In this document: positions 12,867 to 58,197 of the stretch, one piece after another | Layout: each line of letters starts with the position of its first letter | How positions within the stretch are numbered: position 1 is the stretch's first letter | The notes under the pieces: model-generated | Database searches by the model: none | Told to the model about the DNA's origin: nothing | What the model saw: only the letters and a program-made list of their open reading frames with translations | Source: Bacillota bacterium | GTDB taxonomy: Bacteria; Bacillota; Proteinivoracia; UBA4975; VEMY01 | Length of the DNA stretch: 64,000 nt | Assembly (NCBI GenBank): GCA_009711825.1 | Contig: VEMY01000039.1 | Coordinates: forward strand, 1-64,000 | Reading direction: 5' to 3' | Position numbers and translations under genes: made by a program

Positions 12867-13166
12867 AAAAAAATACCCTCGTCAAGGGACGAAAGGTATT
12901 CCGCGGTACCACCCAAATTCCTGCAACATGCAGGCACTCGTTTCCGGTAACGGTGGTAACCGGGCAGAACTACTGCTAATTCACTCTGCCGATTTTGGAA
13001 GGGAACTTCCTGTGCTCCTCCCGGTAGGCGCTCCCAGTCACGGCGTCCTATCCCTGGCACCGGGGTGCGGCAACACAGTACTCGCTTCCGCATTATCGTT
13101 GGCGGTATAAATCTAACACCGAGTGGCCTGTAGCACACCTGCAAAATGGTGTTACAGAACACTGGT
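12867..13166 (-). promoter_or_regulatory. T-box leader of pheST (tRNA-Phe sensing)
   Basis: On the minus strand the T-box core GGGTGGTACCGCGG (12901-12914) can pair with the CCA end of uncharged tRNA. It is followed by a terminator hairpin (AATACC...GGGTATT and a T run, 12867-12900). The 5' half has the Stem I pattern AACGATAATGCGGAAG then AGTA. A TTC triplet at 13003-13005 (minus strand) is a candidate Phe specifier. Known mechanism: uncharged tRNA stabilises the antiterminator. The specifier choice is my inference. Confidence 0.9.
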
Positions 13167-19257: not shown

Positions 19258-19489
19258 AAAAAACATCCAATCCCCCTTGGGACGGATGTTATCCGCGGTT
19301 CCACCCAAGTTGAAGACAAATGTCTCCCAACTCTGCTGACTGTTAACGGTGTCGACCGGCAACGGTTACTGGATGTTCACCGCTGCAGCTCCAGGATGGT
19401 AAATGACGGCACTATCCGGAGGAAGCTTGCAGCCTGGGCTTCCCTCTCTGGGCCAGCGTTTCCGCCAAATATGTTCCTTTCACAGCTTT
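19258..19489 (-). promoter_or_regulatory. T-box leader of thrS
   Basis: On the minus strand the core GGGTGGAACCGCGG (19293-19306) is followed by a terminator (AACATCCGTCCC...GGGATTGGATGTT plus a T run, 19258-19290). A GTGAAAGG-like element near the transcript start fits Stem I. I could not choose the Thr specifier with confidence. Confidence 0.88.
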
Positions 19490-19495
19490 CATAAA

Positions 19496-33316: not shown

Positions 33317-34459
33317 TTAGTATTCGGGATTGGTCAGAGTGCCGATACGACGGAGGTTTACTCTGACCTCCAGAGATATTTCCGCATTCTCGTAGTAATC
33401 ACACCATTCTTCCACGCCGCTGAACCACTTGGGATGCTGAACACGGACAAAGCGCCCAAGGCCAAGGATATCTGAGCGCCAGCGCTGGGTTCTGCGCAGC
33501 ATATCCAGAGCGTTACCCTGAATATCCCGGGCGAGCTGGGTTTCTATTTCATCAAAAATACCATCCTCTAGAGCATCTAGCTTTGCATTCATATCGAGGA
33601 TATCGATGTCTGCCTCTAGCGAGACATGAAAATGCACCCTGTTGTCAATTATTTTAGAACGAACCTTGCGGTTTGCCCGTTTAATAAGAACTGAGGTGAG
33701 CACATCATTTTGTCCCGCCACATCCACCTGTGTGTAGAATCTGCTCCTCCTAGGCTGCTGTGTAAGCATCAAATAATGCGGTATATCGCTATCGCCAAGA
33801 TTCCCCACCATTGAGCCGGATGCGTCCATTACTGCCAGTCCGGAAATTAAAAGGCCTGTTCTATCGTCTTCATGACCGGTAATTTCCACTAATGGCACCA
33901 CAGAACTTATACCTGGATCGGACTGTCGGAACCAGTATCTAGAGGCTGTGACATGAGGAATCAGGCCGTTGTTTACATTCTTTTCCAATAAATTCATCAA
34001 ATACACTGCAACCCGTGTTTCTTCTGACGGCTCAAGCTGCAACACATATTGAGCCGGGTCTCCCCGAACAATGGCCAGTGAAGCGTTGGGATTCATGTCC
34101 ATTTGTTGGTCAACTTCCACCATAACCTCATGCATGCGTCCGGTCCTGGCCATTTCCTCGCTAAATACCAGCACGCCAACCTGACCCAAAACCAGAAAGT
34201 TCTGGTGTTGGCGTTGCGCATTAAAATATGCCTGGGAAAAAGTATATCCCTGGACAGTTGTTTTGTTGGTCGAGTGGGTGGCTGTATCAGAAAATACCGG
34301 GTTTGTAGTAGTGACAGTTAACAGCTCTTTGTCCTCTTCATCCAAATCAAAGCCGATGGCAAAGGCCAAGGCCAATTCCTCAACAATTCGCAGGTCCCAG
34401 CAGCCTGAATTGAATAGCAGGGAACAACATAACAACCCCAAGATTAGACGCTTAATCAA
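33317..34459 (-). CDS. Spore germination lipoprotein, GerAC type
   Basis: About 380 residues. A signal peptide ends in lipobox NSGC, followed by WDLRIVEELALAFAIGFD, the Ger(x)C start. The body matches the three-domain Ger(x)C fold. It is the third partner of the nutrient receptor in the spore inner membrane. TTG at 34459 is chosen: AAGGAGG lies six bases upstream and it overlaps the end of the B gene. An ATG at 34480 is in frame. Confidence 0.9.
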   Translation of the reverse strand: MIKRLILGLLCCSLLFNSGCWDLRIVEELALAFAIGFDLDEEDKELLTVTTTNPVFSDTATHSTNKTTVQGYTFSQAYFNAQRQHQNFLVLGQVGVLVFSEEMARTGRMHEVMVEVDQQMDMNPNASLAIVRGDPAQYVLQLEPSEETRVAVYLMNLLEKNVNNGLIPHVTASRYWFRQSDPGISSVVPLVEITGHEDDRTGLLISGLAVMDASGSMVGNLGDSDIPHYLMLTQQPRRSRFYTQVDVAGQNDVLTSVLIKRANRKVRSKIIDNRVHFHVSLEADIDILDMNAKLDALEDGIFDEIETQLARDIQGNALDMLRRTQRWRSDILGLGRFVRVQHPKWFSGVEEWCDYYENAEISLEVRVNLRRIGTLTNPEY

Positions 34460-35561
34460 TCTTTTCCTCCTTACTCTCATCCAACCCCCGGATTTTTGCT
34501 ACCAGCAGTAATAAGCCTGTCAAACCCAAAATTCCGAAAAGCCCCCACCTACCAATTTGGTCACCCAGTTCAAAAACCTCGCTTAACCGCTCGGGAATAA
34601 TCGCCACGGCATAGACCACCGGCCAGGCCACCAGCGCCCAGATATCATGATAATGATGTCGGGTAAGCGTCGCCAAAGTAAATGTTCCTGCATAATATTG
34701 GATTGCTACGAGCCCAATCACCTGGGCAGTCCAGATAAACAGTACAAGATTATCCACCCTTTGAATAAATGGCAAAGTCCCCACACGCAAATAATTCATT
34801 AGTGGCCAGGTTTGCAAAAGTGTGTGCTCCACTCCCAACACACCAAAAGTAAGAAAAACATTTCCCGCATATAGAACTGTTATCACCGTCAGCGCCAGCA
34901 AAGTTATCCGCAAAACCCTATCTCGATTAATAATAAATGGAAAAAATACCAAAAGCACCTCAAACCCCAAAAAAGCAAAGCTTGCATCAGGTATAGCTGA
35001 CAAAATTGCGGGCAAGCCCTCTGCCCCTACCGGCCGTAAGTTGAGAATGTCGAACTCTGCAAGGGGAACAAGGTAAACGAATATTACAGTGCCTGTCATA
35101 TATACGACTAATTCCATCAACCGTCCCAGAGTAACCGCCCCCATGCGGCTGATGTAAACAACGGGAACCAAATTTGCCAACAAAAAAACGGGTTGCGGTG
35201 TCCATATCAAGGTCCAGGTTGTCGCAAGTTCAGTAAATATTCGGAGAGCTACCCCGCTAATGCCGATTGCATAAATAGCATACATAACAGAAACCAGTGC
35301 TCCCAAGGGCCGACCTAAAATCAGTACGCTGAACTCAGGCAATGTTTTGGTTGGAAATTTTCGGCACAACAACCAGACAAACGCGGCCATTGCCCAAGTT
35401 GCCGCCCCGGCAATTAATATACTGATCCAGCCATCTCTTCCCGCAGTTTCAGCAATAGTACGTGGTAGGGTTGTGATGCCGGCGCCGAGAATTGTACAGA
35501 TAAGCACGGAGGCCCATTGAAAATCACTGAGTCCGTATTTTTTAGCGTCCCTCATCTTCAT
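34452..35561 (-). CDS. Spore germination receptor subunit, GerAB type
   Basis: About 369 residues with ten predicted helices of the amino acid permease superfamily. It starts with a Lys/Arg-rich segment, then YGLSDFQWASVLICTILGAGI. It is the integral B subunit that binds the germinant or forms the channel with GerAA. The start is one of ATG 35561 or 35555, both behind GGGAGTTGAGG. It overlaps the A gene and the C gene, so the three are translationally coupled. Confidence 0.9.
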   Translation of the reverse strand: MKMRDAKKYGLSDFQWASVLICTILGAGITTLPRTIAETAGRDGWISILIAGAATWAMAAFVWLLCRKFPTKTLPEFSVLILGRPLGALVSVMYAIYAIGISGVALRIFTELATTWTLIWTPQPVFLLANLVPVVYISRMGAVTLGRLMELVVYMTGTVIFVYLVPLAEFDILNLRPVGAEGLPAILSAIPDASFAFLGFEVLLVFFPFIINRDRVLRITLLALTVITVLYAGNVFLTFGVLGVEHTLLQTWPLMNYLRVGTLPFIQRVDNLVLFIWTAQVIGLVAIQYYAGTFTLATLTRHHYHDIWALVAWPVVYAVAIIPERLSEVFELGDQIGRWGLFGILGLTGLLLLVAKIRGLDESKEEKID

Positions 35562-37092
35562 CTTCCTCAACTCCCTGCTGCCGGGTAATATTTTTCTCTG
35601 CGGTCAGTGCCGGGCGTTGACGCATCCAGCGCCAAGGGCGTCTGTATATATAGTCCCCCATATCCGAAATTCTCAGTGGTGCCACCGGTGACATGTACGG
35701 TACGCCCAAGGACTGGAGGTTACACAGATGGGCCAAAATCACCATCCAGGTGATCATGATTCCAAACCCTCAGAGATAACCCGCCATGACCAGGAGCGGA
35801 AAACGCAGAAAGCGAATCGCCAGGCTCGCTTCATAATTGGGAATACTGGAACCGGCCAAAAAAGATGTCGCCACCACTATCAATAGAACCGGGCTGACCA
35901 GCTGCGCGTCCACCGCCGCCTGGCCGAGAATCAAAGCGCCCACGATGCTCAAGGTAGGACCGATCGGCCCTGGCAGGCGAATACTGGCCTCCCGCAATAA
36001 TTCCACCGCACCCTCCAGTAGCAGTGCCTCGGTAATTGGCGAAAAAGGTACCGCTTGCCGGGTCTCGGCAATGAAGACAATGATACCCTGTGGTATCATT
36101 TCATAATGATAAGAAACCACAGCCGTATAGGCCGCAGTGGCGGTCGTGCCGAGTATAATTCCGATAAACCGCATCATTCGGGCCAACGTGCCATAAATGG
36201 AGTGCATATAGTAGTCTTCAGGAAGCTGGAAAAAGTCTGCCGCCGTCACTGGTGCCAGTAAGACAAATGGGCTACCGTCGGCGATAATGGCAATTTTGCC
36301 CTGCAATAAACCGCCTACTACTTTATCAGGCCGCTCGGTGCTTAGAAACAATGGGAACGGCGTGATTGTCCGCTCAGTAATTAACTCTGCTGTGGCGCCG
36401 GGATCCAGAATGCCATCGATATCAATAGCCGCAAGGCGTTCCTTTATCTCTTCCACTGTGTCCAGATTGCACACATCTTCGATGTAAGCAACGGCGATTT
36501 TAGTCCGACTGCGTCGGCCCACCTCCCTACAATGAACTTTCAGGTTTGGGTCGGGCAGCCGGCGGCGGATGAGGGCCAGACTCATTTGAATGACTTCCGT
36601 GAATCCCTCCCGGGGCCCCCGAATCAGCCTTTCCTGGATGGGCTCCTCGATGCCTCGCGACGGCCAGTTTTTGGTATCAATCATCGTAACTTCGGCGTAG
36701 CCGTCAAGTATTATTGCAACCTTACCTTGGAGAATATCGTTAGCAAATTCTCCAATGCGGGTAAAGGTGCTGCTCTCCCCCACCGCTAGCAAATCTGCTA
36801 TATGCCGGACTTGTTCGTTCTGTTGTTTGACCTCCAGTAGCTTGCTCACAATATCCCGGTTCAGAGTACTGCTATCCACCAGACCCTCAACATAGAGAAT
36901 GAGCGCCTGGCGCATGCCCATGGCCGGTACGACAACTTTCTTATACTTCACGTCATCGCAGTCTTTATATAGATTGCGCAACAGCTGCTCATCTGTTTTG
37001 AGTTTACCGGTTAGCTTATCGGGCTTTTGGCTGGTATTAGCTTTACTTCCCCGGATGTTGGGCTTCAATCTTGCAAGCAACTTTTTCAGCAC
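35542..37092 (-). CDS. Spore germination receptor subunit GerAA type, with in-frame UGA
   Basis: GerA-family A subunit. GTG at 37092 (GGGGGTGAGTTT upstream) opens a 440-codon frame that ends at TGA (35770-35772). The same frame then stays open for 75 more codons to 35542 and encodes the family's C-terminal segment (HLCNLQSLGVPYMSPVAPLR). Read through, the product is 516 residues, the normal length. The UGA lies inside a membrane segment, after PLLVMAGYL and before GFGIM. A 6-bp hairpin, ATCACC/GGTGAT with loop TGGAT, begins 15 bases after it. It may be a nonsense mutation, an error, readthrough or selenocysteine. Earlier starts up to 37548 are spurious. Confidence 0.75.
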
Positions 37093-57870: not shown

Positions 57871-57924
57871 GTAACCAAACATACCCCCTCAGGGTATGAA
57901 AGCATTCTAAGGTGGTGAATCTCT

Positions 57925-58197
57925 GTGATTGAAGTAACTCCCAAGGCAATTGCTGAGTTAAAGAAAGAGCTGCCTGCGGACCAAGCCTATGTCCGCTTAT
58001 ACGTTGCAGCCGGCTGAGGTGGTCCCCAGTATAAACTGGCTCTGGAAGAGTCAGCTCAGGAAAGTGATACTGTGTTTGATGTCGAAGGTATCAATTTTGT
58101 TGTCAGCGAGAAGCAGCAACATTATTTTGAAGATGTCAAACTAGATTTCACCGAAAACTTCTTTGGCAGTCCACAATTCCGGTTTTTGCGCATGTAG
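57925..58197 (+). CDS. HesB/IscA-like selenoprotein, Sec at UGA codon 31
   Basis: A 90-residue protein if UGA 58015-58017 is read as selenocysteine. GTG 57925 (AAGGTGGTG upstream) gives IEVTPKAIAELKKEL, then LYVAAG-U-GGPQYKLALEE and a C-terminal beta region ending FRFLRM. This is the known HesB-like selenoprotein pattern, with Sec in the G-U-G-G-P motif. The codons after UGA are in frame to 58197, and a hairpin with loop TGGAA starts 20 bases after it, suitable for a bacterial SECIS. Standard gene finding would miss it, splitting it at the UGA. Confidence 0.88.

Follow-up and report, generated by a model that had tools for sequence, protein, structure and literature searches.

The gene for the A subunit of a GerA-type spore germinant receptor (gerAA) in a Bacillota bacterium very probably encodes a selenoprotein, in which codon 441, an in-frame UGA, specifies selenocysteine (Sec) by means of SelB, tRNA-Sec(UCA), and a bSECIS hairpin. 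The gene lies in a stretch of 64,000 nucleotides (contig VEMY01000039.1 of assembly GCA_009711825.1), which is referred to here as the window. A conserved UGA, a covarying hairpin, a constraint at the protein level after the UGA, and the Sec machinery are all present in the sequences, and it is from these that we infer the residue at position 441 to be Sec. Recoding, which an earlier note on this DNA had held to be merely possible, is now strongly supported by the occurrence of the UGA in 15 species, the compensatory changes in the hairpin, and the Sec machinery. Sec-containing GerAA proteins appear to form an old subfamily that is spread over at least seven Bacillota families.

The gerAA gene is located on the minus strand (35542..37092) and starts with GTG at 37092. 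The first in-frame stop, TGA at 35770..35772, follows 440 codons, after which the same frame continues for 75 further codons up to TAA at 35542..35544. The earlier note had claimed that these open codons encode the conserved C-terminus of the family, and this holds: the read-through product matches PF03323 with 554 bits (cut-off 27) over profile positions 2-465 of 466, with one TGA inside the match and the conserved GerA C-terminus downstream of it. The order gerAA-gerAB-gerAC of the operon is present in the window, with gerAB of the endospore germination permease family (34452..35561, minus strand; TIGR00912, 191 bits) and gerAC for a Ger(x)C family subunit (33317..34480, minus strand; TIGR02887, 210 bits). 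The last 20 nt of gerAA are also the first of gerAB, and the overlap is 4-20 nt in most genomes with the UGA, so that the two genes are likely to be translationally coupled. Since they overlap, ribosomes probably have to pass the UGA of gerAA for gerAB to be translated. Five GerA A-subunit genes were found in the genome of the window, and an in-frame stop occurs only in the one described here.

The UGA is found at the identical column of gerAA in 15 species, which belong to seven Bacillota families and at least three classes; most of these genomes are draft assemblies. A comparison of the read-through protein with 40 related genomes gave six more genomes of the same order whose best orthologue has one TGA, at the column of the window. 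The orthologues of G309 (53% identity) and G278 (41%) came from 399 genomes sampled across the phylum, and a search of the class of G309 found UGA-containing gerAA also in G453 and G454. These 11 sequences were used to train a covariance model (R1) of the 45-nt element made up of the UGA and the hairpin (35728..35772, minus strand), which scores 68 bits in the window, the next match there being 12.8 bits. In the 399-genome sample, its matches brought four new UGA-containing gerAA genes, in G354, G374, G073, and G333 (43, 38, 32, and 28 bits, respectively), three of which encode proteins only 35-40% identical to that of the window. Those matches below 28 bits that were inspected were either gerAA of the Gly type or unrelated sequence. 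The copy in G333 is partial: its upstream part is disrupted and it contains unread bases. An extra frame break, most likely an assembly error, occurs upstream of the UGA in the gerAA of G005 (L092) and near the C-terminus in that of G001 (L091). The TGA matches in G063 and G016 were rejected as orthologues of the UGA, as the TGA is at another column. Among 69 homologues without the UGA, column 441 holds Gly in 68 and Gln in one, which bears out the earlier observation that the site aligns with Gly; Cys was found in none of them, and no CxxU or UxxC motif was found around the UGA. Of the Sec and Cys codons that the earlier note had suggested looking for in relatives, the UGA is kept by the closest orthologues and no Cys codon was found.

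The second line of evidence is a SECIS-like hairpin (35738..35754, minus strand) with the stem ATCACC/GGTGAT and the apical loop TGGAT, which is separated from the UGA by 21 nt. It is the hairpin that the earlier note had described with a G at +23, and it was located as such. In each of the 15 UGA-containing genes, TGGnn is enclosed by 5-6 contiguous base pairs, at bases 18-34 counted from the first base of the UGA. Among 33 gerAA genes without the UGA, a stem of 6 bp occurs in none and one of 5 bp in only two. In the alignment of the 15 sequences, 95.6% of the stem cells are paired, and double changes are seen at pairs 21:33 (CG/UA), 22:32 (AU/GC/GU), and 23:31 (CG/UA/UG). The double-compensated cells number 10 as against 3.1 +/- 1.8 in shuffles, none of the 500 shuffles being as high, with the qualification that this control leaves the kinship of the species in place. 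Despite this kinship, two other comparisons point the same way, namely the contrast with the genes without the UGA and the sliding of the partner strand, by which the pairing falls from 95.6% to 20-81%. The same helix is predicted by RNAalifold unaided.

The rules given for bSECIS elements are a loop of 3-9 nt, an upper stem of 4-16 bp, a G in the first two loop positions, a spacing of 16-37 nt, and a minimum free energy (MFE) of <= -7.5 (PMC13188914). The hairpins of the UGA-containing gerAA genes agree with these, having a loop of 5 nt, a stem of 5-6 bp, a G at loop position 2, and a spacing of 21 nt. Their best local MFE ranges from -9.4 to -17.4 kcal/mol; in a fixed segment of 42 nt, 14 of the 15 pass the threshold of -7.5 and G374 has -5.9. 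The chance that synonymous codons alone give the stem is 0.08-0.39 for any one sequence. A stem could therefore arise by chance in one gene, and the case rests on the set rather than on any single gene. The possibility that the hairpin is a by-product of the encoded peptide was rejected, since a nested clade with Gly has an almost identical peptide (LTWMVI) and yet lacks the full stem.

Constraint on the codons is as strong past the UGA as ahead of it. The differences at codon positions 1/2/3 are 0.32/0.16/0.51 after the UGA as against 0.32/0.14/0.60 before it. The stem codons +7 (ACC/GCC) and +10 (GTG) show 100% synonymous identity among third positions that are otherwise variable. Codon +7 ends in CC in all of the first 11 UGA-containing genes, and codon +10 is GTG in 10 of these 11; the lone exception, GCA, is compensated on the other side of the stem.

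The machinery for Sec is found in the same genomes. Each of the 11 UGA genomes examined, the ones behind the training set of R1, has a tRNA-Sec above the Rfam cut-off and a SelD with an in-frame UGA of its own (L138-L149), and the anticodon of tRNA-Sec is UCA in the five genomes read by ARAGORN. SelB scores above the family cut-off in all seven UGA genomes of the same order. Two UGA-containing selD genes were seen in G453. The window itself holds a HesB/IscA-like gene (57919..58197, plus strand) with an in-frame UGA at 58015-58017, a UGGP motif, and the hairpin CTGGCTC-TGGAA-GAGTCAG. The HesB-like proteins are a known selenoprotein family. The earlier note had called this gene a probable selenoprotein; its UGA and its TGGAA loop, which resembles that of the gerAA hairpin, are confirmed, and its status stays at probable rather than certain because its matches to the NCBIfam HesB models are below their cut-offs. 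It is probably an internal reference for selenoprotein decoding in the genome of the window.

Other accounts of the UGA have to be weighed against decoding as Sec. The earlier note had ranked a nonsense mutation or a base error in a decaying gene as the main alternative, given that GGA becomes TGA by one base change; moreover, the genome has four other GerAA paralogues, all intact. This ranking is reversed by the comparative data: a UGA that 15 species keep at one column excludes an error or a nonsense mutation, and the continuing constraint on the protein and the covarying hairpin are further arguments against it, so that the probability of this account is negligible. Relatives with Gly and no UGA, which the earlier note would have taken against recoding, do exist, and they are either distant or probably secondarily derived. 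It is also very improbable that the UGA is a true stop, with a shortened GerAA and the last 75 residues made separately by reinitiation. An ATG is available five codons past the UGA in the window; however, the other UGA genomes have no conserved start codon there, and the break would halve what is predicted to be a single membrane helix.

The remaining account has a somewhat larger share of the probability, albeit a small one. It holds that a near-cognate tRNA (such as tRNA-Trp) or a special Gly or Trp tRNA reads the UGA without any Sec, and that the hairpin only slows termination. The aligned Gly in nearly all other GerAA proteins would suit such misreading, as would the base context UGA-GG, which is fixed in all 15 genes. 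However, the stop at this column is always UGA in the 15 species and never UAG or UAA, the hairpin fits the bSECIS rules, and the same genomes need Sec decoding for SelD. Besides, the gerAA genes of G453 and G454 and three gerAA paralogues in the genome of the window end at an ordinary UGA stop, which argues against a general code in which UGA stands for Gly; a genome-wide recoding of UGA was rejected on the same grounds.

With Sec as the preferred reading, the history of the site may be followed in the GerAA trees. With column 441 masked, maximum-likelihood trees show one clade of genes with Gly (families f4 and f9) surrounded by the UGA-containing genes, and a tree constrained to unite all UGA-containing genes is not rejected by the AU test (p = 0.447); the deep placement in these trees is unsure on account of long branches. 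The residue G442, next to the site, is present in 15/15 UGA-containing genes and in 8/8 of the nested Gly relatives, as compared with 0/25 of the other GerAA genes, and the nested clade also retains TGG at the loop position. The genes of this clade (L011-L016, L101, and L125) have GGN at the site and a decayed hairpin, and their genomes still have tRNA-Sec. A reversion from Sec to Gly in the nested clade is probable on these sequences. The simplest reading would be one old gain of the UGA and one return to Gly, and two independent gains of the UGA are compatible with the trees as well. The probable reversion provides a natural experiment on the role of the residue.

According to the proposed mechanism, SelB and tRNA-Sec(UCA) would decode UGA 441 as selenocysteine under the direction of the hairpin with its loop 21 nt downstream, and the product would be a full-length GerA A subunit of 516 residues with Sec in the middle of the last transmembrane helix. 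An AlphaFold2 model built with 39 sequences (mean pLDDT 84.7) has both the fold of the N-terminal domain and a helical membrane domain; the former matches the solved domains of GerK3A and GerIA (6o59 and 9prb; Foldseek to 6o59, E 1.5e-15). In this model, which agrees with hydropathy, residue 441 lies inside the last membrane helix, residues 430-458 (codons at 35719..35805, minus strand). Sec would replace a nearly invariant Gly of this helix, and no catalytic role is obvious for a residue that aligns with Gly in a membrane helix. A pair of Sec with Cys457 (+16) is a weak candidate, as Cys457 is present also in the Gly relatives and was not found in the three f58 genomes.

Within the germination channel, the Sec may respond to redox conditions or to a ligand; for instance, it may keep the receptor closed when oxidised, so that anaerobes would not germinate in air. 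It may further be conjectured, as the favoured hypothesis on the role of the residue though with the chances rather against it, that Sec 441 acts as a switch, responsive to redox or to a soft ligand, in a pentameric or hexameric channel, in which a diselenide or selenenyl-sulfide locks the receptor closed, the exit from dormancy in anaerobic spore formers is tied to reducing conditions, and the supply of selenium limits the amount of receptor. A literature search for papers connecting germinant receptors with redox found none. If the switch were real, it would, to our knowledge, be without precedent as a selenocysteine that helps to gate an ion channel in bacteria.

The UGA-containing GerAA resembles other GerA A subunits (PF03323; GerAA, GerXA, GerIA, and GerK3A) in its full-length match, its N-terminal domain, and its operon, and differs from them in that the nearly invariant Gly 441 gives way to a UGA, which is followed by G442. 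With bacterial bSECIS selenoproteins such as FdhA, SelD, HesB-like proteins, and GrdA, it shares the UGA, a hairpin 16-37 nt downstream whose loop has a G as its first or second base, and the Sec machinery. Unlike these, it is without a Cys counterpart, and its Sec would be placed in the transmembrane helix of a receptor with no recognisable redox site. Most known selenoproteins have a Cys homologue or a CxxU/UxxC motif. Searches based on Sec/Cys pairs would miss the UGA-containing GerAA, and gene callers shorten it. Sec has been predicted in integral membrane proteins before, namely the YeeE/YedE transporter, the SO_0444 efflux transporter, and the FCYXU-type TonB-dependent receptor (PMC13188914). 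Their families are unrelated to GerA and none is a germination channel; the SO_0444 transporter and the TonB-dependent receptor also have UxC or CxxU motifs, in contrast to GerAA. A review of May 2026 has listed 119 families or subfamilies of prokaryotic selenoproteins in its Table 1, and GerA is absent from that table (PMC13188914). NCBIfam gave no selenoprotein model for this protein, and no report of a selenoprotein in the GerA family or in germination was found in a search whose scope left out preprints and most subscription papers, an absence that is no proof. Selenium is thus probably built into a spore germination channel, for which no earlier report was found. GerAA would be an unexpected type of addition to the selenoprotein families: the Sec of this spore germination receptor would sit in a membrane helix, at a site where the other members have Gly and not Cys. 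It would also tie selenium, and possibly redox conditions, to whether spores germinate.

Elsewhere in the window, two T-box leaders (12882-13102 and 19275-19492, minus strand) score just above the Rfam cut-off.
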